A stretch of DNA of 64,000 bases from contig JAFTXQ010000011.1 in the NCBI GenBank assembly GCA_017461565.1, forward strand, positions 124,001-188,000, in the 5' to 3' direction. This DNA is from Oscillospiraceae bacterium (lineage in GTDB: Bacteria; Bacillota; Clostridia; Oscillospirales; Ruminococcaceae). The notes under the pieces were generated by a model. That model did not search any database and was not told the origin of the DNA. It saw only the letters and a list, made by a program, of their open reading frames with translations. The translations under genes were made by a program, and so were the position numbers. Positions within the stretch are counted from its first letter, which is position 1, and each line of letters opens with the position of its first letter. Below, piece after piece: positions 33,554 through 49,922 of this stretch.

Positions 33554-35398
33554 CTATGATACCACGATCGTTGACCCTGAAAGCTGCTCTGAAGCGTAAA
33601 TATAACTATCTTCGTCCACTCTAAGATTAACGAAGCTTTTACAGTTTTTCAGTGCCGTAAAATCCTCCGTTCCGCAACCAAGCAGCGTAAGAGTCGTTAT
33701 ATTTGTCTGTGCTATCTCCGCAGGAAGAGCTTTGATACGTGCATTATTGAACCCTGCAGTATCAAGCAGCTGCATATTTGATATTCCATCCATATCGCAT
33801 AGGTTCGGCGTATCGAGAATAAGCCCCTCAAGCGCTGTCAGCCTGCTGATGACCGAAAACTCCGTCAGCGCATCACAGCCGCACAGCTCAAGCTCCTTAA
33901 GCCCTGTAAGGCTTCCTATCTTCTCAAGGGTCGGCGCTGTTACATTGCCTGCGATCAGATGCTCAAGCTGTAAAAACTCATCCACAAATGGCACATCATA
34001 GACCTCAGTGAAATTTATACACAGCTTTTCAAGCGGCTTTTCTCTGAGAGAACTGATATCACTGAGAGCCACACAACATGCAGCGTCCACGCTTTTCAGC
34101 CTGTCCAGCTCCTCAAGGCAGGATATATCGTTTATCTCATAATTTGAAGATATCCACAGGTACTCAAGCTCATGACATCCGGTAACCGACGATATATCGG
34201 ACAGCTTGTTGTCGCATACACTCAGCGCCACAAGTCCATTGGGAAGATCATCGGGGAGCTCTGAAACCCCTTGCTTATCCAACGCAAGATACTTAAGGCC
34301 CGTAAGCAGACCGATATCATCCAGCGGCAGCTTCGGCTCTTCCGGAACATCCATTTCCGCATACTGATCGAACAGGTAAGTGTGTAAATTCTCCAGCTCA
34401 TCCCAGCTGTCAAGCACACGATCTCCCGATAATAACAGATGATCTATCTTTGCAGCTTCGTCAAGATAGATCTTTTCGTTTTCGGATATGCCAAGCTGTC
34501 TGCGCACTTCCTGCTCTATCACGGGACTGACAAACACCGCCTCCCTGCGGAAGAAATGCGGCGCAACAAATACCGCAATGGCCACAAACGCTAAAGCAGC
34601 CGCAGAAAATGCTACGGCTTTAAAAACTTTGTTATTGATGCATTGTCTCAGCGCCCCACACATTTTACCTACACTCTGATACCTGTCTTTAGGATTGAAC
34701 TCAATGCTTCTGTTGATTATCGCTTTCAATCGCTTCGGCATAACACCGTTACGGTCATAAGAGCCCGTGGATATATACAGAAGCAGCATACCCAGCACAT
34801 AGACATCTGTACGGCAATCTGACTGCGCAAATCCAAACTGCTCGGGTGCTGCCATCTCCTTAGTTCCTATACACATGGCGTCATGATCGGCATTTTCATC
34901 ATATTGCTTTGCCGAATCAAAATCGATTATTTTTATGCTTCCGTCATCAGCGATCAATATATTTGACGGATTGAGGTCACGACATATAATTGGCGGATTC
35001 AGCTTATGGAGCTTTTCAACTATTCCGCACAGAACCGAGATAATGCTGGCAGCCTCTTTCTCGCCGAAAACGCTTCCCGTCTCAACGATCATTTCAAGAG
35101 TACTGCCTTTTACATATTCACGAAGATAATATGATCTGTCATTTTCGGTGAAAAAATCTATCGGCTTCAATATAAAACCGCAATCCTTTTCTTTTAAAAG
35201 ACGGCGTACTATTCTGTATTCATTTTCAAGCAAACATCCACTCTTGCCGTTTCCGCATTTAAGCAGAACATAAGCACCGTCAGAGATGCTTTTCAGTAGA
35301 TATACGCTTCTTTCCTCGGTGTACTTGAGACAAGTGACGATATCATATTTTCCCCGTATCTTTTCGGGAACATCAAGCGTAAAATCGTACTCCTCCAA
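33554..35398 (-). CDS. Membrane Ser/Thr protein kinase with extracellular leucine-rich repeats
   Basis: 614 residues. Kinase domain about 17-255, then a membrane helix (about 259-280) and an extracytoplasmic LRR region (about 320-600, LxxLxxLxLxxN-type units). Lysine K47, Glu E58/E60, D141 and N146 (CRDLNPSN) and D159 are present, but the glycine loop is absent, HRD reads CRD and DFG reads DFD. Catalytic residues for phosphotransfer are kept, so activity is possible but unusual. Start is TTG 35398, without a good ribosome site; an AGGTGAGG lies further upstream. Follows the small HTH gene by 62 bases on the same strand. Confidence 0.85.
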   Translation of the reverse strand: MEEYDFTLDVPEKIRGKYDIVTCLKYTEERSVYLLKSISDGAYVLLKCGNGKSGCLLENEYRIVRRLLKEKDCGFILKPIDFFTENDRSYYLREYVKGSTLEMIVETGSVFGEKEAASIISVLCGIVEKLHKLNPPIICRDLNPSNILIADDGSIKIIDFDSAKQYDENADHDAMCIGTKEMAAPEQFGFAQSDCRTDVYVLGMLLLYISTGSYDRNGVMPKRLKAIINRSIEFNPKDRYQSVGKMCGALRQCINNKVFKAVAFSAAALAFVAIAVFVAPHFFRREAVFVSPVIEQEVRRQLGISENEKIYLDEAAKIDHLLLSGDRVLDSWDELENLHTYLFDQYAEMDVPEEPKLPLDDIGLLTGLKYLALDKQGVSELPDDLPNGLVALSVCDNKLSDISSVTGCHELEYLWISSNYEINDISCLEELDRLKSVDAACCVALSDISSLREKPLEKLCINFTEVYDVPFVDEFLQLEHLIAGNVTAPTLEKIGSLTGLKELELCGCDALTEFSVISRLTALEGLILDTPNLCDMDGISNMQLLDTAGFNNARIKALPAEIAQTNITTLTLLGCGTEDFTALKNCKSFVNLRVDEDSYIYASEQLSGSTIVVS

Positions 35399-36114: not shown

Positions 36115-36885
36115 TTATATCCTGTTCTTTATCTTCTGAAGCGCACTTTTTTCCAGCCGTGATACCTGCGCCTGACTTATCCCTATCTCCTTAGCGACCT
36201 CTACCTGTGTTTTTCCGCTGAAAAACCTAAGTCCAAGTATGCGCTTTTCACGCTGGCCCAGCTGGTGCATAGCTTCCTTGAGCGATATCTCGTCAAGCCA
36301 GTTATCGTCGTCATTGTGGTCGCCCAGCTGATCGAGGACATAGATAGTGTCGCCCGACTCTGAAAACACAGGTTCGTAAAGCGATATAGGCTCGCTTATC
36401 GCCTCAAGCGCTATCACTACCTCCTGCCGTGAAACGCCTACTTCCTTTGCCACTGCCTCTATCGTAGGCTCTTTCCCATGCTTTTTCGTAAGCTGCTCCT
36501 TTGCCTGCATCGCACGATATGCAAGGTCACGTATAGACCTGCTTACTCTTACAGGAGCATTGTCACGAAGGTAGCGGCGAAGCTCACCCTGGATCATCGG
36601 AACAGCGTAGGTGCTGAACTTTACAGGCTGAGTAATATCAAAGTTATCTATCGCCTTGATAAGCCCGATACACCCCACCTGAAACAGATCGTCAGCGTTC
36701 TCACCTCTTCCCGAAAAGCGCTGGATAACGCTCAGAACAAGGCGCAGATTGCCGTTTATCAGATCCTCACGTGCCTGCATATCTCCCTGCTTGACCTTAT
36801 GGAGCAGAGCCATTTTTTCTGCTTCCTTGAGGACTTTTAGCTTTGACGTATTTACACCGCTGATCTCGACTTTATTATAATACAA
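36115..36885 (-). CDS. sigG: Forespore RNA polymerase sigma factor SigG
   Basis: 256 residues, sigma-70 family. From the TTG at 36885 the N-terminus reads MYYNKVEISGVNTSKL, aligning residue for residue with the SigG start (MxxNKVEIcGVdTSKL), which supports this start over the GTG at 36918. Region 2 (NGNLRLVLSVIQRFSGRGEN, DDLFQVGCIGLIKAIDNFD, VKFSTYAVPMIQGELRRYLRD) and region 4 (GKTQVEVAKEIGISQAQVSRLEK) are complete. SigG directs late gene expression in the engulfed forespore, so the strain descends from or is a spore former. GGGAG is 7 bases from the TTG and lies in the stem of the upstream hairpin. Confidence 0.93.
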   Translation of the reverse strand: MYYNKVEISGVNTSKLKVLKEAEKMALLHKVKQGDMQAREDLINGNLRLVLSVIQRFSGRGENADDLFQVGCIGLIKAIDNFDITQPVKFSTYAVPMIQGELRRYLRDNAPVRVSRSIRDLAYRAMQAKEQLTKKHGKEPTIEAVAKEVGVSRQEVVIALEAISEPISLYEPVFSESGDTIYVLDQLGDHNDDDNWLDEISLKEAMHQLGQREKRILGLRFFSGKTQVEVAKEIGISQAQVSRLEKSALQKIKNRI

Positions 36886-36887
36886 AA

Positions 36888-36942
36888 AACCACTCCCGGA
36901 ACTTAAACTTGTCTGCACAAGTATTATTGTCCGTGAGTGGTT
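36888..36942 (-). terminator. Hairpin overlapping the sigG ribosome site
   Basis: On the leftward strand AACCACTCACGGA pairs with TCCGGGAGTGGTT (12 of 13), with a second stem ACTTGT/ACAAGT inside, and is followed by TTTTTTG. It has the form of an intrinsic terminator for the DUF368 gene; its 3' arm contains the sigG ribosome site GGGAG and its U-tract contains the TTG start codon. Confidence 0.65.
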
Positions 36943-36952: not shown

Positions 36953-38131
36953 TCAGGCTTTTTCTGTTTTATCAGGCAGCTTATTTTCTTCGGCAGGTTT
37001 TCCGACCTTGTCGATGATGACCGAAACAAGTATACCGCATATCAATGCCACAAAGCCGTATCCGGTCTCGAGATTGAATCCGAAGCCGACAGGCAATATC
37101 GCATACACCGAGCCTATTACAAGTCCCATGATAGCACTGTACATCATAAGGCCGTGCTTTTTAATAAGCGTGGACACTAGCCTTGCTCCAAGCACAACGC
37201 CCAGAAGCGCACCGATAGCGCATGGGATTATTATAAGGATATTAATATCCTTTATAGCTGCAATAACTGTCGAATAAACACCGAGCAGCATCATCACGAA
37301 GCTTCCCGATACGCCAGGGATGATCATCGCAACAGCTGCAACAAACAGTGCTCCCATCATAGTAAGGAAAAACAGCACATCCATAGAGTAGCTTAAATTG
37401 AGGGACATCTCCCCTGCCTCGCTGGGAAGCTCACCGTCATAGGTAAATGTATAGCTGCTGTCAGGCGGGATGACATCGCCATCAATACCTGTGAACATAT
37501 TGGCAGCCATATCGGGAAGCTTCACCCCGAATATACTCTTGATCTTATCGAAAGTGGAATGATCGTGGACAGCGTCTGCGCCTGTTACCTTTCCATCAAG
37601 AGCGATGTTTTCATCACCGAACTCGATAGACCATTCCTCTACCGTCCTTGTGCTGTCATTATGGATAGTCACAGAGGTGATACCGTTGTTGACGGCGGTT
37701 TCAAGGCTATACGGCGTGGAAGCTCCGTTTTCGGCTACCGCAAGACCTATAACCAGTGCAAGTCCTATTATAAAAGGAACTGCGCAAAGAGGCTTTATCT
37801 TTTCTGTTGCCGTTGCGGTACGGACGATAAGGGGCACACTGCCGAGGATCAGACCAATAAAGAACATATTCGTCTGAACACCGAAATTGCTGAACAACCA
37901 AGTGATAATGAAGGCAAATCCCAGAATACCAAAACCCGCACCCGCTGCAAAGCTTATAAGGAAACCAATATTATTGATGATCCTCTTGACGCCCGAAATA
38001 GCCTCGGTAAGCTTATCATATATTCCGAATACCACGAGCATCGTGCCACCGCTTACGCCGGGGATCACATTGGCTATTCCGAAAGCCAGTCCGCTGATAA
38101 AAAACCTGAAATAAAGTCCTATCTTACTCAT
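36953..38131 (-). CDS. DUF368 (PopT-like) undecaprenyl-phosphate transporter with inserted extracytoplasmic domain
   Basis: 392 residues versus about 280-320 for typical DUF368 proteins, which are now linked to recycling of undecaprenyl phosphate across the membrane. Both inverted-topology motifs are present: PGVSGGT at 24-30 and PGVSGS at 262-267. The extra length is a soluble domain at about 130-240 with ITSVTIHNDST, VEEWSIEFG and IPPDSSYTFTYDG, a CBM2/Ig-like beta-sandwich pattern. ATG 38131 follows GGGAGA. It starts 22 bases after the stop of the P-type ATPase-like gene, so the two are co-transcribed. Confidence 0.86.
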   Translation of the reverse strand: MSKIGLYFRFFISGLAFGIANVIPGVSGGTMLVVFGIYDKLTEAISGVKRIINNIGFLISFAAGAGFGILGFAFIITWLFSNFGVQTNMFFIGLILGSVPLIVRTATATEKIKPLCAVPFIIGLALVIGLAVAENGASTPYSLETAVNNGITSVTIHNDSTRTVEEWSIEFGDENIALDGKVTGADAVHDHSTFDKIKSIFGVKLPDMAANMFTGIDGDVIPPDSSYTFTYDGELPSEAGEMSLNLSYSMDVLFFLTMMGALFVAAVAMIIPGVSGSFVMMLLGVYSTVIAAIKDINILIIIPCAIGALLGVVLGARLVSTLIKKHGLMMYSAIMGLVIGSVYAILPVGFGFNLETGYGFVALICGILVSVIIDKVGKPAEENKLPDKTEKA

Positions 38132-38152
38132 ATTTTCTCCCAATCGCTTTGT

Positions 38153-40612
38153 TTATCTGAATTTTATAAGAGATCTTACGATCGCATAACCCACTGCAGG
38201 TATGATGCCCGTTATAATTGAAATAAACAGTGCAAGCATATCTATCGCCACAAGCCCGAACGCTGTATTTATCGCAGGGATATATGCAAGAATTATCGGA
38301 AGCGCCGCAAATAGCGCTGCACATATCATCTGCTGTCGGCTCGCACTGCGGATCGCTTTGAGCGGAGCCTCGTAAGAGAGACCCATTAGCGTGAACAGCG
38401 CATAGCTTATTCCCAGGGAAATAAAGGAGCTAGTCCTTGCGAACTCGGGGACAGCGCCCGTATACATGAACATATAGGAAGCCACCGAGACAGCGCCGCA
38501 GAGAAGTCCTATCATAAGCGAATGTCCCAAAAAGGAAAAGTTGATCTTTCTTGCTGCAACATAATCGGATCTTGGCATCTCACTGCCGATATCTCTTCTG
38601 TTGCTTACGTAAGCCAATGCCGCAAAAGGAAGCAGCACCATTGTCAGAAGTGCAAGCAGCGGCGGATTGAGCATAAGCAGCGTATCATCCACAAACAGAT
38701 TCATTATCGTGAGTACCAGCAATGCCGCATAGCCTGATAACAACGCCGCAACGCCTCTCTTGATATTGCGGTGTATCTGTCTTGCCGACGATATCAGTGC
38801 TGCAATAGAGGAAAGGTTATCGTCGTTCATGATGATATCCGCAGCCTCATACGCGCTTCCTGCGGTATGCTGTGCAATGGTTATTCCGACGTCCGCAAGC
38901 TCCAGTGCCTCGGCGTCAGTGGTGCGTGTACCCGTCATAGCCACTACCTCGCCCTGCTTTTTCATGCGGTCAAGGATATATAGCTTCTGCTCGGGAGTGA
39001 CTTTTGCATAGATATCAGCGTCAAAGGTGATATCAGCGCCGTACTTTACGGAATCCGATATCTGCTTGCCGGTAATGGTCTTTCCTTCAAGACCTATTGC
39101 CCTGGCGGTCGCTGCTGCAACATGAGGACTGTCCTCGGTGAGCATTACCACCTTTACGCCTGCCATTGCGCAGGTCTTGACAGCACCCACGACCGAATCC
39201 CTGAGCGGCGCCGCAAATGCTACAAAGCCCACAAAAGTATATGCAAAGCCTGCGGTCGAATCGCAATCACGCTCTATTGCGTCGGCACAGGCGACAGCCA
39301 TCACACGATAACCTGCAGCATAATACTCACGCTGCTTCTTCTGGATATTGAACAGCTGATCACCCTTGAATTTACACAGTGGAAGTATCTGCTCAGGTAC
39401 GCCCTTAATACAGTAAAGTCTTGATTCTCCGACCTCCCAGAGCGCTCCGCTCATGACGTTATTGCTTTCGGGGATCTTTTCTATAAACTTATTTTCGTTG
39501 TAGATATCCTTGATATTTTCATCAAAAAACGATGCCTTGACCAGCAGCGCACGCTCTGCCTCGTCTGTGGTGTTCTTGTCACAGGCAAGAACGCCGACCT
39601 TATACAGAAGCTCCTCGCTCTTGGTGAAGATGCTCTTCACCTCCAGATGGCTCTTTGAAATAGCGCCCTGCTTCTCAATGCACAGCACCGAGACTGAATT
39701 AAGGCGCTCCACATCAGCGAGCGATTTTACAACGGCGGAACGGGTTATCATATCAGTTGCGCCCTTGATGTAATAAAACCGCACTATCGCAGAAATCCCT
39801 GTAGGCACAAAGCACAGACCAACCGAAATACCACGTAGAGCCGCCTCGACAACATCATTTCCCGAGAGCGACCAGAACAGCAACGATACCAGCACAAGCG
39901 CCACTGCCACTGCGGAAGCGATCGGCACTATGCCCTGTATAGTGCGTTCCATACGGGTATAATAGGTGTGATTATCAGTCTTTTCGCCTATTTTCTGATA
40001 ATATTTTGTATCTACTCCTGCCGCACTTACCTTACATATAGCAATACCGCTCAGGATAGTGGTGCCGCTGTATACAAAGGACTGGCTCAGCTCCGTCTTG
40101 GAGATAGCACCAGGATACTTTGCAATCGGCTTATTGGAGCCTGTAAATATACTTTCATCAGCGACAAGATCACGAGCTTCCTGTATGTATGCGTCAGCCG
40201 GAACACGCTCGCCAGCCTGAACAACAAGGATATCCTCTGGGACGATGAATTCTTTTTCAATAAGCTCCAGCTTACCGCCACGGATTACACGGAATTTCAT
40301 CGCTGTTGTTGCCTTTATCTCAGCAAGCTTCTCATCGGACGCTGTGCCGAAATATATCTCCATGAACGCATAAGCCGCATCGATCAGCAGGATGAAAATG
40401 CCACCCAGCAGGTCAGCACCGAATAAGCTCAGCACGCCTGCTATAAACATCAGCAGAAAAGAGGGAGAAAGTATCACTCTCAACGGCGAAAAGCTCTCCG
40501 TTTTCTTTTCATTTCTGGTATATACATTGTAACCGTAAAGCTCGGTATTCTTTTCTATATCACTTTCGGTAAGACCGAAATAATCGCCTTTGAAATCAAA
40601 AAACTGTGCCAT
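38153..40612 (-). CDS. Catalytically degenerate P-type ATPase homologue
   Basis: 819 residues with the P2-ATPase layout: cation-transporter N domain, membrane helices, A domain, P/N domains, C-terminal helices. Key residues are replaced: TGES reads TGSN (157-160), PEGL reads PTGI (270-273), the phosphorylated DKTGTLT reads EKQGAIS (313-319), and TGDGVND reads TGTRTTD (560-566). The N-domain motif KGVPE survives. Loss of the aspartyl-phosphate site, the actuator Glu and the first hinge Asp predicts no ATP-driven transport. The reading frame is intact, so a regulatory or scaffold role is more likely than decay. Operon with DUF368. Confidence 0.88.
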   Translation of the reverse strand: MAQFFDFKGDYFGLTESDIEKNTELYGYNVYTRNEKKTESFSPLRVILSPSFLLMFIAGVLSLFGADLLGGIFILLIDAAYAFMEIYFGTASDEKLAEIKATTAMKFRVIRGGKLELIEKEFIVPEDILVVQAGERVPADAYIQEARDLVADESIFTGSNKPIAKYPGAISKTELSQSFVYSGTTILSGIAICKVSAAGVDTKYYQKIGEKTDNHTYYTRMERTIQGIVPIASAVAVALVLVSLLFWSLSGNDVVEAALRGISVGLCFVPTGISAIVRFYYIKGATDMITRSAVVKSLADVERLNSVSVLCIEKQGAISKSHLEVKSIFTKSEELLYKVGVLACDKNTTDEAERALLVKASFFDENIKDIYNENKFIEKIPESNNVMSGALWEVGESRLYCIKGVPEQILPLCKFKGDQLFNIQKKQREYYAAGYRVMAVACADAIERDCDSTAGFAYTFVGFVAFAAPLRDSVVGAVKTCAMAGVKVVMLTEDSPHVAAATARAIGLEGKTITGKQISDSVKYGADITFDADIYAKVTPEQKLYILDRMKKQGEVVAMTGTRTTDAEALELADVGITIAQHTAGSAYEAADIIMNDDNLSSIAALISSARQIHRNIKRGVAALLSGYAALLVLTIMNLFVDDTLLMLNPPLLALLTMVLLPFAALAYVSNRRDIGSEMPRSDYVAARKINFSFLGHSLMIGLLCGAVSVASYMFMYTGAVPEFARTSSFISLGISYALFTLMGLSYEAPLKAIRSASRQQMICAALFAALPIILAYIPAINTAFGLVAIDMLALFISIITGIIPAVGYAIVRSLIKFR

Positions 40613-42579: not shown

Positions 42580-44397
42580 ATGGATAAAGCTTGTAGCAAC
42601 TGCTTTTCAGCAATAGATTTTAATGAAAATGTCTGCCCTTACTGCGGCTTTGACTGCTCGGAAGCAGAATATCATTCCTATGCTATCGCAGGAGGAACAC
42701 TGCTTAAGGAGCGTTACGTAATTGGCAGAGTGATCGGCACAGGTGGCTTTGGAATCACATATCTCGGCTATGATACGCAATGCGAAAAGGTCATAGCTAT
42801 AAAAGAATACTATCCGCATGGAGTTGCTGTGCGTTCCGACGACAACCTTACTCTGGAACCACTCGGCTCATGCAACACTGAATTCTTTCGCAAAGGTATA
42901 GAGCGGTTTCTCTGCGAGGGCAAATATATCGCAATGTTTGAAACGGCCTCAGAGATAATGGGCGTCTACGACGTATTTGAGCAAAACGGCACAGCATATT
43001 ATGTAATGGAATATTTTAACGGAATCACCTTAAAAGCCTACCTTGACAAATACGGCAGGATATCCGCTCAACAAGCAGTATTGATAGCGTATCATATTTC
43101 AGAGGCCTTCAGCGTTATACACAAGGGTGGTATCATACACCGTGATGTCTCGCCCGACAACATCATGCTGTGCAGAAACGGCAATGTAAAACTGATCGAT
43201 TTTGGTGCAGCCAGATCGTTTGCAGACGACGACAACGGACTTTCGGTATTGCTCAAGCAGGGCTTCACTCCACTGGAACAGTATCAGCGAAACGGAAAAC
43301 AAGGTGCATGGACTGACATTTATTCGCTTGGAGCTTCACTGTATTATGCGCTTACATTGTGTATGCCCGATGACCCTATGTCCCGTTTCGAAGATGACAG
43401 TGCATTTAAAGAGCAGCTCTCACAGTATCCCGATAAGCTCGTTCAACTTATCAGCCGTGCCTGTGAAGTACGTGCAAATGAGCGCTACCAGACAGCTGAG
43501 GAGCTTCAACAGGCACTTACAGAATGTGGTATAGTATCCTGCGGCTTTGAGGAAAAAAGATTACGTCGCAACAGGATATATCCTCCTCGTACCGAACTTA
43601 CCTATCTCAGAAAAAGCAAAGTACAGCAAGTAAGGATTGCGGGCGAAATGATGCCTATCGATCTGGTAGAGCTTGACCTCTCCGACAGGCAACTCACAAA
43701 TGCACAGATACAAAATCTCAGGCATCTAAAAAAGCTTGAAAAGCTTGACTTAAAAAACAATTTTATTACCGATCTTTCCTGCCTGAGCGGACTCACAGAG
43801 TTGAAAAACATCTGCTTTAACAACAACAATGTGCAGGATATTGAATTCGCAAGGGACATGATATCGCTTCAGCACATCTCAGGTGAAAACAGCGGAGTTA
43901 CTGATATTTCGCCTCTTAAAGGAAAAACAGAGCTTGTAAGCGTTTTCTTCGGCGATGCGGGAGTAACTGATATCTCACCGATAAAGGATTGCCAGAAGCT
44001 TGTTATGGTAGGATTCAACGAAGCTCAGATAGGTGACATTGAAGCGCTGCGCAACAAGCCTCTTCTGGAGATGGTATGCCTTTCGGGATGCGGACTACGG
44101 GACATCTCGCCTCTGGAAGGCTGCCCTAATCTTAACGAGGTGTTTGTAGGAAGGAACAAGCTTACTGATCTTTCCCCACTGAAAGGAAAAAAGCTTTCAA
44201 ATCTTTTCTTCGACAACAACATGATGTCGCAGGGCATCGATACTCTTGAGGGGATCTCAGCAAAGTGGACAGTCGCAGCCGAACACAATGGCTTTACCAT
44301 GGAGCAGGCGGTGCGTGTATCGGAAATAATCGGATATGGCACTTTGTATTTTGAACAGGCACTGGGTGGAATATGGAAGAACAATAAACAATCATAA
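42580..44397 (+). CDS. Soluble zinc-ribbon Ser/Thr kinase with C-terminal leucine-rich repeats
   Basis: 605 residues. A zinc ribbon (C5, C8, C19, C22) precedes a canonical kinase: GTGGFG (53-58), K75, HRDVSPDN (187-194) and DFG (207-209), with EQYQRNGKQGAWTDIYSLG as the activation-segment end. The LRR region covers about 340-560 (LxxLxxLxLxxNxI units). No transmembrane helix is evident, so the LRRs are cytoplasmic, unlike the kinase at 33554-35398. It is expected to be active. ATG follows GGTGGTGATC. Role likely in intracellular signalling; substrates unknown. Confidence 0.9.
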   Translation: MDKACSNCFSAIDFNENVCPYCGFDCSEAEYHSYAIAGGTLLKERYVIGRVIGTGGFGITYLGYDTQCEKVIAIKEYYPHGVAVRSDDNLTLEPLGSCNTEFFRKGIERFLCEGKYIAMFETASEIMGVYDVFEQNGTAYYVMEYFNGITLKAYLDKYGRISAQQAVLIAYHISEAFSVIHKGGIIHRDVSPDNIMLCRNGNVKLIDFGAARSFADDDNGLSVLLKQGFTPLEQYQRNGKQGAWTDIYSLGASLYYALTLCMPDDPMSRFEDDSAFKEQLSQYPDKLVQLISRACEVRANERYQTAEELQQALTECGIVSCGFEEKRLRRNRIYPPRTELTYLRKSKVQQVRIAGEMMPIDLVELDLSDRQLTNAQIQNLRHLKKLEKLDLKNNFITDLSCLSGLTELKNICFNNNNVQDIEFARDMISLQHISGENSGVTDISPLKGKTELVSVFFGDAGVTDISPIKDCQKLVMVGFNEAQIGDIEALRNKPLLEMVCLSGCGLRDISPLEGCPNLNEVFVGRNKLTDLSPLKGKKLSNLFFDNNMMSQGIDTLEGISAKWTVAAEHNGFTMEQAVRVSEIIGYGTLYFEQALGGIWKNNKQS

Positions 44398-44530: not shown

Positions 44531-47500
44531 TCATAAAGTTGTACCGTAAACCGTTCCCGAAGCCGTCTTCCATGCGCCGTTGACGAACGCCTTAACTCGG
44601 AATGCGTACTTTGTTCCGTTTGTGAGTCCAGTAAAGGTGTAGCTCGTGCTTGTTACAGCGTTAGACTTGCATACGTAAGCACCGTTTTCGAGCATATAAA
44701 CTGCGTACTTTGTAGCGCCTGTTACTGCATCCCAGCTCATTGTTACTGTGCCGTTGCCGCCTGTTGTTTTGATATTCTCAGGGATGACGGATACAGATGT
44801 GCTTGCAGGAGTTCCGTAAACCGTTCCCGAAGCTGTCTTCCATGCACCGTTGACAAACGCCTTAACTCGGAATGCATATTTAGTTCCGTTTGTGAGTCCT
44901 GTGAACGTATAGGATGTTTCTGTAACGGCATTGGACTTGCAGGCAAATGCACCGTTTTCAAGCATATATACAGCGTACTTGGTTGCACCTGCAACTGCAT
45001 CCCAGCTCATTGTAACCGTGCCGTTACCACCTGTTGTTTTGATGTTCTCGGGGATAACGGATGCGGAAGGATCTGCAGGGATCGCATAAATGATCGGACT
45101 TGCAACGCTCCATGCACCATCATAAGCCTTAAGCTTAAATCCGTATTTTTTACCGTTGGTGAGATCGGACACTGTGTAGCTTGTATCTATTATCTCGGTA
45201 TCAAGGCAGGTGTACTTGTTGTTTTCATAGATGTACACAGCGTATTTTTCAGCGTCCTCAACCGCATCCCAGCTGAGGGTCACCTTTGAGTCACCTGCTT
45301 CAGCCTTTATATTCTGAGGATAAGTTATCTGTTCCTTCGCTATGTAGATCATATCGCTGACAGCATTACCGAATTCTGTTACTTTCTGATTGGTTTCGTC
45401 GCCGTATACAATCCAGCCTGCACTGCCTGAAGGCAGCTCAGGAGCGATTATCTCATCCCCGATATTGTATACCGCAGATGTAAGCTCATTTCCTTCGCTG
45501 TCAAGGAAGCTTATTATCGCATACGCAATATCTCCGTCTATCTCCCTTATGTACTGGTCGATAGTATTGTTAAAGGTGTAGTATTCCTCTGATTCTGTGG
45601 TTATCTCGACTGTTATGATGCCTGTTTCCTCGCCTGCACCCAGAAGCTCACTTATATCAAACAGCTCCTGATGAGTGTTCTTACCATTGATGTTTGCAAC
45701 AGGTACACGCTTAAGCTTGTTACCATCCTCATCAGTCAGAAGCAGCGTGCAGCCTGCAGGCACATAGCTTTCGTTATGTATATCTACCACCAGATAAGCA
45801 TTGTTGCCGCCTATCACCTCTCTGGAGGTCACTGACAGCTCTGTCCTGCCTAATGTAAGCTTTGCGCTGTCGTTTGATGTATTCTGATCATTGTCAGCAG
45901 ATATAGTAACAGTGTACTCGGTTTTGTCTACCTTTTCAACAGGCATCTGCACTACTATTTCTGCCAGCTCGCCCATCTCTATAACAGTACTTACTGTTGT
46001 ATCAAGAACAGTGCCGCTGCTATCGGTTATTCTTACTGCGATCTCGCTTATGGGAGTTGTACCCTTGTTTTCGACAGTCAGTGTCACAGGAAGATCGCCG
46101 CCGACTGTGATATCCTCGTAGTTGAAATCTGTCTGTAAAATTGCCACATCGGTGTATTCACTGTACAGGAAATACTTCATTACAGAGCTGTCCGACAACT
46201 CGTCGTCACCTGCTGTGATAAGTGTATCCATGAATACTGCCATATCCTCGCATGCAGTGAAAGCAGAGATCTCGTTATCCGACGTGTATATCACCACAGG
46301 TGCACTCCATCCGCTGCCATTGTAGCTTGTCATATATATGCAGCCCTTGTTCTCTGCATTCACGCCATAATACAGGACGCTGCTGCCTGCTACCACATAT
46401 CTGTTGGTGATACCGAGGTCCTCGCTGAGCGTTTCTGTTTCGGATCCACCGAAATAGCTGAGTGTTCCGCTCTCGTGCCAATATATAACATCGCCGCTTA
46501 CAGAGGGTAATTCACCTATATGCAGACCCGAAATTGCTCCGACCGAAGCTTCCTGTCCTTCTGCATACAGTGTTATATCATCAGTTGTGGAGAAATCATT
46601 GTCGCCGTCTGTCATGTACACTATCTGCATCTCACCGTCAACATCGCCTATTGCAAGTCCAGTGACTGTGTTCAGACCGCTTGTATATGTAACAGGCTCA
46701 CTCCATACACCCTGCTGACAAAGGCTATACATGATGCTGTTGGTAGTGTTAAGGCCAAAGAAGTCTGTATCCTCATTGTTTACCCATACCGCCGCAGGCT
46801 CGCCGTTTACTAAGCCCATAGCTGCGGAATGATTGTAACCATCACTGCCGGATACAGCCACAGGCTCAGTGAAGCTGCCGATCTCAACATCAAAACGTGC
46901 AGCCTTTATCACAAAGGACTCAGCCAGTTCGTCTGTTGTAACGGTATCCGAAAATGTATCCGCTGCATCCTGATAGATCGCCCATATCTCGCCGTTTATC
47001 TCATAGATATCTGCACCCCAGTCAACGGTGCCGTTGCTGTCAAGCTGCTTAGGCTCGCTCCATGTTCCGTCTTTGTACACCATGTATTTAAGAACGGTCT
47101 GGTTTGCAGTTCCCCTCTCAACGTCAGAGTCGAGGTAAATCAGGACCATATCCTCTCCATTCGTCGCAAGCTTTGGTGCTGCTGCAAGATATGCGTCCTC
47201 TATCAGTGCAGCAGGCAGTGTATCTGCTGTAGCTGCTGCTCCAAGGAATTCAGACTTATATTCGCTCGCTGAAAGCTCGACATAAGAGCTGCTGTTGTAC
47301 AGCGGAGCCAGAGCAGATTTATATTCAAGCGCTGCCGCTGCGGTACTGCTTCTGGAATACAGGTTCCATGTTTTCTCGGCAATTTTATGCTCATACTTGA
47401 ACGGACCCAGGTAAGCTTTGATGCCTATTCCTGCGGTGAGATCTACTGCATCAACGCCTGACGGCTCGGATGTGGACACAAGCACGATATCTATTGCAAG

Positions 47501-49870
47501 CTCGCCCTTGCCTGTTACGCCTAAGCCTAAAAGTTTATCGACACCCACACCAACAAATGGTTCAATAGCTACTTCTATGTTAAGATCAGCATCGCCATAC
47601 ACTTCCATAGCCTCATAATCAAGTCCGAATTGTATATCTAGAGTTCCCTTTGCGGAAAAATCAAAATCAACTACCACTGGAATGAAGCCTAACACAAAAG
47701 TCTTACAGCAGTTATTACCATAATCTAATGTTCCAATAATATGAATGTTTGCTTTAGCAACTTCACCATTGGTTATCTGAGTCTCTCCATAACCTGCAAT
47801 AGTAAGATCGCATTTTTGATCTTTGTCAACTAATCGTACTTTGTTGACAGGAGTCGTTAACCACGACTTCAATGATTTTATCTTATATTTTCCAAGCAGT
47901 TTGTTGTATTGATTTATTAACTTAGCATCTTCAAACTCCTTTTTAAAGTCAAAAAACTTATCTTTGTCATCCAATACATCTTTTTTTACATTAACCCCAA
48001 ATCTAACTGTTCCATCTGATGATACAGAAATCTCAACAGGCAATTTCAGAGCATCACAGGCAATTGTCATATTGCCAATTATTTCATTGTTAAACTTAAA
48101 TTCAAACCCATCAGAACCGCCCAATTTTATTTCTGAAGCTTCAAAAAAGGGGCTTTCTTCCACTTCTAGCATAAGCGGCGTTTTAGCATAAGTTCCATCA
48201 TGAGCAGTAACAACCACATAATAATCCTTGCCTGCCGTCAGTTCGCTCATTTTCAGATCGAACAAACCATCATCAGTAGTCTTTATTAGCTTGGTGCCAC
48301 AATACAAAGAGTAATCGCTAACTTTATCTTCATCCCCCTTGGTGGAGCAGGCAATCGTGAATGTTGTAGATATATCCAAAGCTACAACATCACCAAATGT
48401 TATCTTATGATGCTCTTTCAATAGATCTTTTGTTAACGACCCAGCAGTATATACAGCACTTTCAAGAGTATGCTTGGACGGTTCTGCAAAGCTTGGCAGT
48501 CCTGTTGAAATATTATTATCAGCGTCAGCAGTGTTGTTGTTTGTGCTTGTGGCACCATCTACATGGTTATAATGGATGGTAGCACTTGTGAGATATTCAT
48601 TATCATCACCAATATCTATCTCCGCCCACTCCGCTTCTATACCCGTATAATATACGTTTGTTAACTGAGAACAATAGGCGAAAGCAAAATCATTGATTTT
48701 TATAATATTACTGGGAATTGTTATATCCCTTAAGCTTTTACACCCTAAAAACTGAGCACTACTTATATAAGCAACACATGGTAATTTTATACTTGTTAGG
48801 CTACTACACATACGAAACGCACCTTGGCCTATAGAGGTGACACTATTCGGTAATTCCATACAAGCCAAATTAGTACAATTGAAAAAAGCTTCTTCGCTTA
48901 TACAAGTAACGCTTTTCGGAATCTTTACGTCTGTTAAACATACACAATCTTGGAATGCGCTTGCTCTGATTGTTGTAACATGATTTGGTATATCATAGTA
49001 TTCATTTTTTTTGCCAGCCGGATAACGTACTAATGCAGTTCCATCCTTACTGAAAAGAACACCATCTATGCATTTAAAATATGGATTATCAACATCAACA
49101 AATATACTTAACAAATTAGTACAGTCATAGAATGCATAAGGACTGATAAAAGAAACGTTTTTGGGAATAGTAATGCTAGTCAAACCGTTGCAATGTCCAA
49201 ACGCAAATGTTTCAATTGATTTAAGATTAGGAGACAAAGATATATTGGTTAGGTATACACAATACATAAAAGCATCATACCCTATATCAGTAACGCTATT
49301 TGGAATAATATAATTTGCATCCACTTTTCCTGCTGGATAACACAGTAGTTTTGATACATTGATATCAAAAAGGACGCCATCTATACTTTTATAATACAAA
49401 TTATTATCATCTATATTTATATTTGTTAGATTAATACAACCTCTAAACACAATACTACCAATATTAGTAACACTAGCTGGAATCATAACATACGTTATTC
49501 CAGTACAATCTTGAAACGCTCCCTGTTTAATAGAATTGACCCCATCTGGTATTATTACACTGGTTATACTCTTGCAATTTAAAAAAGCATAAGAATCAAT
49601 ACTTGACACCTTATACCCATCTATCTCAGACGGAATACTAAGATCGGACGCAAAGCCTGTATAATCTGCAATTTCAATAGTCCCATCATCAAGCAGATTA
49701 TATTTGTAATCCCCCGAGGTAATGGCGCTATTGAACTCTTCCGCGCTGACCGCAGGCTGTTCCAACGTATCCGTAACGTACTCTGCGGCTGTGGTCAGCG
49801 GCAGAGCGCTCGCCGTCAGGACGACCGCAGTCAGTGCCGCAGCTATCCGTCTGAAAATGTTAGTTTTCAT
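44531..49870 (-). CDS. Giant BspA-like LRR surface protein with propeller, CARDB and Fn3 modules
   Basis: 1779 residues. Signal peptide 1-30; BspA-type LRR_5 repeats (about 50-450, units like SVTSIGQGAFRMC and IPKSVTCISEEAF); an Ig-like region; a beta-propeller-like section with repeated GTWSEP/GVWSEP/GSGWSAP (about 900-1250); CARDB-like domains; three C-terminal Fn3 domains with a 90-residue period, the last two nearly identical. No LPXTG or other anchor is visible. ATG 49870 follows AGGAGAA. The LRR half is much more AT-rich than the rest. Likely a secreted adhesin or binding scaffold. Confidence 0.87.
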   Translation of the reverse strand: MKTNIFRRIAAALTAVVLTASALPLTTAAEYVTDTLEQPAVSAEEFNSAITSGDYKYNLLDDGTIEIADYTGFASDLSIPSEIDGYKVSSIDSYAFLNCKSITSVIIPDGVNSIKQGAFQDCTGITYVMIPASVTNIGSIVFRGCINLTNINIDDNNLYYKSIDGVLFDINVSKLLCYPAGKVDANYIIPNSVTDIGYDAFMYCVYLTNISLSPNLKSIETFAFGHCNGLTSITIPKNVSFISPYAFYDCTNLLSIFVDVDNPYFKCIDGVLFSKDGTALVRYPAGKKNEYYDIPNHVTTIRASAFQDCVCLTDVKIPKSVTCISEEAFFNCTNLACMELPNSVTSIGQGAFRMCSSLTSIKLPCVAYISSAQFLGCKSLRDITIPSNIIKINDFAFAYCSQLTNVYYTGIEAEWAEIDIGDDNEYLTSATIHYNHVDGATSTNNNTADADNNISTGLPSFAEPSKHTLESAVYTAGSLTKDLLKEHHKITFGDVVALDISTTFTIACSTKGDEDKVSDYSLYCGTKLIKTTDDGLFDLKMSELTAGKDYYVVVTAHDGTYAKTPLMLEVEESPFFEASEIKLGGSDGFEFKFNNEIIGNMTIACDALKLPVEISVSSDGTVRFGVNVKKDVLDDKDKFFDFKKEFEDAKLINQYNKLLGKYKIKSLKSWLTTPVNKVRLVDKDQKCDLTIAGYGETQITNGEVAKANIHIIGTLDYGNNCCKTFVLGFIPVVVDFDFSAKGTLDIQFGLDYEAMEVYGDADLNIEVAIEPFVGVGVDKLLGLGVTGKGELAIDIVLVSTSEPSGVDAVDLTAGIGIKAYLGPFKYEHKIAEKTWNLYSRSSTAAAALEYKSALAPLYNSSSYVELSASEYKSEFLGAAATADTLPAALIEDAYLAAAPKLATNGEDMVLIYLDSDVERGTANQTVLKYMVYKDGTWSEPKQLDSNGTVDWGADIYEINGEIWAIYQDAADTFSDTVTTDELAESFVIKAARFDVEIGSFTEPVAVSGSDGYNHSAAMGLVNGEPAAVWVNNEDTDFFGLNTTNSIMYSLCQQGVWSEPVTYTSGLNTVTGLAIGDVDGEMQIVYMTDGDNDFSTTDDITLYAEGQEASVGAISGLHIGELPSVSGDVIYWHESGTLSYFGGSETETLSEDLGITNRYVVAGSSVLYYGVNAENKGCIYMTSYNGSGWSAPVVIYTSDNEISAFTACEDMAVFMDTLITAGDDELSDSSVMKYFLYSEYTDVAILQTDFNYEDITVGGDLPVTLTVENKGTTPISEIAVRITDSSGTVLDTTVSTVIEMGELAEIVVQMPVEKVDKTEYTVTISADNDQNTSNDSAKLTLGRTELSVTSREVIGGNNAYLVVDIHNESYVPAGCTLLLTDEDGNKLKRVPVANINGKNTHQELFDISELLGAGEETGIITVEITTESEEYYTFNNTIDQYIREIDGDIAYAIISFLDSEGNELTSAVYNIGDEIIAPELPSGSAGWIVYGDETNQKVTEFGNAVSDMIYIAKEQITYPQNIKAEAGDSKVTLSWDAVEDAEKYAVYIYENNKYTCLDTEIIDTSYTVSDLTNGKKYGFKLKAYDGAWSVASPIIYAIPADPSASVIPENIKTTGGNGTVTMSWDAVAGATKYAVYMLENGAFACKSNAVTETSYTFTGLTNGTKYAFRVKAFVNGAWKTASGTVYGTPASTSVSVIPENIKTTGGNGTVTMSWDAVTGATKYAVYMLENGAYVCKSNAVTSTSYTFTGLTNGTKYAFRVKAFVNGAWKTASGTVYGTTL
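44541..45090 (-). repeat. Tandem 270-bp Fn3-coding repeats
   Basis: Nearly identical units start at 44541 and 44811 and a diverged third at 45081, exactly 270 bases apart (90 residues). Silent and single differences separate the first two, indicating recent duplication or gene conversion. Confidence 0.85.
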
Positions 49871-49922
49871 ATCACTTTTCTCCTTTTTCAGCATCCGAAA
49901 ATGCCTATAATATTACAGATTA

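Follow-up and report, generated by a model that had tools for sequence, protein, structure and literature searches.

We report that the window (the whole stretch of DNA that was analysed, 64,000 nucleotides) carries a gene for a protein derived from P-type ATPases, hereafter referred to as the pseudo-pump, followed on the same strand by a gene for a predicted lipid translocase of the DUF368/PopT type and by a sigma factor gene (Table 1). The frame of the 819-aa pseudo-pump is open throughout and its layout is that of a P2-type ATPase, with Pfam matches, in this order, to E1-E2_ATPase (97 bits against a cut-off of 28), HAD Hydrolase (45 against 26) and Cation_ATPase_C (31 against 27). Solved Ca2+ and Mg2+ pumps align to most of its length, and the protein passes the general P-type cut-off of NCBIfam (142 versus 62 bits) and stays far under every cut-off listed there for specific pump families. 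An AlphaFold2 model based on a 23-row alignment (pLDDT 82.9, pTM 0.73) has P-type pumps as its closest PDB structures over nearly the whole length; E1- and E2-like entries tie, and no single state is favoured. By ancestry and fold the pseudo-pump is thus a member of the P-type ATPase superfamily, with the A, P and N domains and the M helices in order, and the domain order, the open frame and the survival of the fold are as the first-pass annotation had described them. The gene is present in a single copy in the window's genome, whose further P-type ATPase matches are found on different contigs and have an intact DKTGT.

Table 1. Genes and motifs of the pseudo-pump locus, with positions in the window
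Feature	Position	Strand	Remark
Sigma-70 family factor gene (SigG-like by reading)	36115..36918	-	next downstream of DUF368
DUF368/PopT-type (PF04018) gene, predicted undecaprenyl-phosphate translocase	36953..38143	-	directly downstream of pseudo-pump
P-type-ATPase-derived pseudoenzyme gene	38153..40612	-	819 aa, stop included; ATG start
Hinge TGDGVND, TGTRTTD here	38915..38935	-	first Asp lost, second kept; alignment
TGD motif, T492-E-D here	39131..39139	-	alignment
N-domain KGVPE, kept	39392..39406	-	alignment
Phosphorylation motif DKTGTLT, E313-K-Q-G-A-I-S here	39656..39676	-	alignment
Arg278 in M4	39779..39781	-	100/100 family members; Thr/Ser in 9/9 intact pumps
M4 ion-site PEGL, P270-T-G-I here	39794..39805	-	alignment
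Actuator loop TGES, T157-G-S-N here	40133..40144	-	alignment

The DUF368 gene is listed with a TTG start at 38143, and by reading the ATG at 38131 behind GGGAGAA is the more likely start. Its product scores 124 bits with PF04018 (cut-off 26) and 133 bits, in two stretches, with the NCBIfam PopT equivalog (cut-off 400), and since it lies above the former cut-off and below the latter its substrate is a predicted one. Between the two halves of the protein there is an insert of ~110 aa (37367-37735, minus strand) with no Pfam match; L101 shares it, as do the four second-genus copies in the alignment, and the remaining aligned copies of the window's genus lack it. Sigma factor genes of the same cluster lie near the pseudo-pump/DUF368 pair in most of the mapped loci of the genus. 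The region is flanked by two proteins that have a protein kinase domain together with leucine-rich repeats (33554-35398, minus strand, and 42580-44397, plus strand), and a 1787-aa protein (44531-49894, minus strand) appears by eye to be of the surface leucine-rich-repeat type with repeated fibronectin-like units in its C-terminal part.

Catalytic motifs replaced, lost and kept

Motifs of the window protein were identified by comparison with solved Ca2+ pumps and intact relatives, and motif counts were taken from an alignment of 109 rows (100 family members and 9 intact pumps). The window protein lacks the phospho-Asp, the TGES Glu, the M4 Glu and the complete hinge of an active P2 ATPase. The first-pass annotation had read EKQGAIS for DKTGTLT, TGSN for TGES, PTGI for PEGL, a hinge without its first Asp (TGTRTTD) and a retained KGVPE, all of which the alignment confirms. 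Its count of three replaced catalytic centres was too low, since TGD has become TED and the adenine-stacking Phe and a nearby Lys, which we take to be the equivalents of F487 and K492 in SERCA, are also gone.

Across the 100 aligned family members the Glu of TGES, needed for dephosphorylation, is present once, the M4 ion-site Glu (PEGL/PEEF) never, the first hinge Asp seven times and the hinge Asn once; the second hinge Asp is found in 93 and the Lys that follows the phospho-site (DK) in all 100. The phospho-site itself is occupied by Asp in 45, Glu in 51, Gly in three and Asn in one, and no row among the 100 has the complete catalytic set, so that the looked-for orthologues with an intact DKTGT and all other motifs are lacking among them. 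One locus, L205, keeps both the phospho-Asp and the TGES Glu without the hinge and the M4 Glu. Besides Arg278 (Table 1), four residues are invariant in the family (E145, D201, E222 and K618, each 100/100), and the same residues occur in 2, 1, 1 and 1, respectively, of the 9 intact pumps.

The two larger genera differ at these positions. Specifically, all 38 aligned rows of the window's genus have Glu at the phospho-site, which shows the replaced residue to be conserved, and all 38 lack the adenine-stacking Phe (an alignment gap) and the nearby Lys. The 45 members that keep the phospho-Asp all belong to the second genus (61 aligned copies), in which the adenine Phe is present in 36 and its Lys in 28, and nucleotide binding may survive there. 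A role as ATP sensor is weakened for the window's genus by the loss of the Phe and the Lys in 38/38 rows and may still apply to the second. The claim that the motifs had changed together holds for the TGES and M4 Glu residues, which are lost nearly family-wide, and fails for the phospho-Asp, which is retained in 45 of the 100 members and has been replaced several times.

Distribution, ancestry and the neighbouring DUF368 gene

The pseudo-pump was found in 108 genomes: 41 of the 43 from the window's genus, 66 of the 71 from a second one and one of one from a third. Orthologues within the window's genus mostly have 49-76% identity and are present in all 27 near-complete genomes. For the wider searches a profile built from 23 members was used. 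In the second genus 61 of the 71 genomes have a match at E<=1e-180; five of the other ten have a DUF368 gene with a diverged or cut-off pseudo-pump copy right beside it, and the remaining five yielded neither of the two genes, although they may hold a diverged copy. No pseudo-pump was found in other lineages in samples of the family (396 genomes), order (345) and class (311). In the family and order samples the lowest member score is 768 bits, against 535 for the best intact pump; members reach down to 624 bits in the second-genus search and the diverged copies beside DUF368 to 264. Each of the five out-of-family matches in the class sample (505-591 bits) is an intact pump. Intact pumps thus score up to 591 bits, a value that L277 (264 bits) and L274 (579) do not exceed and L275 (597) barely does, so that copies of this kind could be hidden in the wider searches, and the membership of L277 rests on its adjacent DUF368 and its tree position, on a very long branch. 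At this second-genus locus (L277:2668-6346) the pseudo-pump and the DUF368 protein are both extremely diverged, as if drifting together, and both have very long branches in their respective trees.

In two quick trees the pseudo-pumps form one clade apart from the tested intact pumps (support 100); in one of these trees the phospho-site must have switched between D, E, G and N at least five times. From these changes we infer that the phospho-Asp was lost late and repeatedly, and the losses of the TGES and ion-site Glu residues are probably common to the clade. Among 18 close pseudo-pump pairs, hand-picked from the tree, dN/dS lies between 0.033 and 0.104 in all 18 (NG86), a sign of strong purifying selection, and that of the neighbouring DUF368 is 0.05-0.20 in 17 of the same 18 pairs. 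We therefore reject decay, i.e. that the gene is decaying and its frame open by chance, as having next to no probability: one copy in the genus, from a fragmented assembly, has a broken frame (G023), and another, close to the end of its contig, terminates ~55 aa too soon (G016/L035), but the dN/dS values of the 18 chosen pairs, the conserved replacement residues and the full-length frames in the fetched loci, contig-edge cuts aside, all speak against it. That the protein is a pseudoenzyme held by selection, as the first-pass annotation had proposed on the basis of the window, is hence well supported, with orthologues in 41 of the 43 genus genomes, dN/dS far below one and a conserved DUF368 neighbour.

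A DUF368 gene lies downstream on the same strand in the window and in 86 of 93 fetched loci, which bears out the expectation that this neighbour is conserved. The seven exceptions are six loci in which the copy ends within 200 bp of the contig end and L090, the only third-genus copy, which has no adjacent DUF368 and is followed by a gene that is CapA-like by reading. In nine further genomes of the window's genus (outside the 93, the window aside) DUF368 is beside the copy in seven, and in two the copy reaches the contig end. The distance between the two genes, with start codons picked by script, is <=150 bp in 77 of the 86 loci, and they mostly overlap or lie within 60 bp of each other, with a 4-bp start/stop overlap (distance exactly -4) in 16. 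In four second-genus loci (L180, L181, L182 and L183) a gene that by reading is phosphoesterase-like (273-302 aa) lies between the two.

As a control, 40 other DUF368 regions (39 taken from the family's other genera, plus the one with the second DUF368 of the window's genome), spanning ~4 kb on each side with several shortened by a contig end, were searched with the family profile; DUF368 was confirmed in all 40 and a P-type ATPase found in none. The linked DUF368s form one clade (90 rows, support 99, quick tree), in which the sole row with the label unlinked, L279, starts right at the edge of its contig. Of the 41 genus genomes that have DUF368, 28 hold a single copy and 13, the window's genome included, a second one elsewhere; the second copy of the window's genome (L271, G000 contig 10) has no P-type ATPase nearby and falls outside the linked clade. 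Moreover, 106 of 196 sampled genomes of the family have a DUF368 match (105 above the cut-off) and only nine of these have the pseudo-pump, so that DUF368 is generally found on its own. The linkage of the pseudo-pump to one DUF368 clade is near-obligatory, and linkage of a pseudo-pump to a DUF368/PopT-type gene is new here.

Proposed function and alternative readings

Judged from its motifs the pseudo-pump presumably cannot run the catalytic cycle, and since its gene almost always lies directly before that of a predicted lipid translocase, our data suggest that an old pump was turned into a non-pumping helper of lipid recycling. On balance we think that it probably acts as a regulatory or structural subunit, without pumping, of the PopT-type translocase encoded by the next gene. 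By its place in the tree it descends from an intact IPEEFP-type P2 ATPase, and it would have lost ATP-driven pumping and been retained as a membrane partner of the translocase. The two proteins would bind each other, the partner would move undecaprenyl phosphate, as expected from its family, and the pseudo-pump would steer the folding, gating or activity of the partner, perhaps via the invariant Arg278 in M4 and its large cytoplasmic domains. A read-through fold of both proteins (pLDDT 78.7, pTM 0.66, below the pump alone) was uninformative on contact. The first-pass annotation had argued for a new non-transport function, of which the selected pseudoenzyme stands and the non-transport part finds no support in view of the pairing with a predicted lipid translocase; given how tight this pairing is, the pseudo-pump may well contribute to transport, although not by cycling ATP. 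A more specific arrangement, which we offer as speculative and would not expect to be right, is a two-part lipid-carrier translocase, in which a hydrolysis-free pump scaffold and the PopT-type protein would jointly make up the path or the gate through which undecaprenyl phosphate passes, and Arg278, replacing the ion-site chemistry of M4, would contact either the phosphate of the lipid or an acidic group on the PopT-type protein.

The same selected pseudoenzyme might instead have a job unrelated to PopT, e.g. as a membrane scaffold or sensor, with the operon providing joint expression only, and we regard this as unlikely although worth serious weight. Linkage indicates co-expression at most rather than contact, L090 has no DUF368 next to it, and the new invariant charges (E145, D201, E222, R278 and K618) would fit any partner. 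Against such a job speak the linkage in two genera despite proteins at 30-34% identity, the short or overlapping gene junctions, and the ten second-genus genomes described above, where both genes occur side by side in five and neither was found in five. Another alternative is an active non-canonical P-type ATPase which energises its PopT-type partner, as KdpB does for KdpA, using Glu as the acceptor in the window's genus and Asp in part of the second. The Asp kept in 45 of 100 members, the invariant Lys next to it and the second hinge Asp (93/100) would fit this, and KdpB-KdpA is a known pump-transporter pair (PMC10654040), but with the TGES Glu in one member, the M4 Glu in none, the first hinge Asp in seven, no row with all of these, and both adenine-contacting residues missing in 38/38 genus members, we consider it quite improbable.

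Comparison with known systems

Pseudoenzymes, pseudokinases among them, are a familiar class of proteins, and SUR in the KATP channel provides a parallel for a degenerate pump that acts as a regulator. The closest intact relatives found are clostridial P2 ATPases of the IPEEFP type, which score 436-591 bits with the family profile and come both from other families of the class (L283-L286) and from the same family (L093-L099). Those from other families have the N-terminal pattern M[AS]K..GF.GDY.GLT in common with the pseudo-pump; unlike it, the IPEEFP-type relatives have intact DKTGT, TGE, IPEEFP and TGDGVND motifs, and no DUF368 was found in their fetched flanks. At one of these loci (L285:1233-10188) there are three consecutive P-type ATPase genes, and it is the middle one that encodes the intact relative carrying this N-terminal pattern.

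A 2014 survey, in its excerpted text, reports DKTGT in 99.77% of P-type ATPases, with 22 single-point exceptions (PMC3896382). In the literature searched, mainly open-access, we found neither a bacterial family of P-type pseudo-ATPases nor a pair of pseudo-pump and PopT-type protein among the matches listed, and none of the listed matches and excerpts on PopT/DUF368 showed a P-type ATPase partner. The partner belongs to a recently recognised type of translocase; if energy-dependent, DUF368 transport has been suggested to use a sodium motive force or another gradient (PMC9876793). The family described here, strongly selected in more than 100 genomes, preserves stages of loss, with the TGES and ion-site Glu gone nearly everywhere and the phospho-Asp repeatedly, and it provides a concrete test case for pump scaffolds as regulatory or structural subunits in the recycling of cell-wall lipids.

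Two published systems come close. In KdpFABC, too, a P-type ATPase subunit and a distinct membrane transport protein work within the same complex, but KdpB is catalytically active (PMC10654040), and the pseudo-pump scores 71 bits in the kdpB equivalog test, far below the cut-off of 528. Human TMEM94 is reported to have a P-type-like fold, in which neither TGES nor ATPase activity nor a catalytic cycle was found, and to hold a lipid by M3, M4, M5 and M7; lipid transport or regulation was suggested (PMC12134183). The class assignment of TMEM94 is disputed by an opposing 2026 paper (PMC13322241). Compared by published description, TMEM94 resembles the pseudo-pump in having a P-type-like fold without TGES and differs in being eukaryotic and in its proposed phospho-site, D417. 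With KdpB-KdpA and TMEM94 as published arrangements, a non-pumping subunit of a PopT-type translocase is a reasonable proposal.
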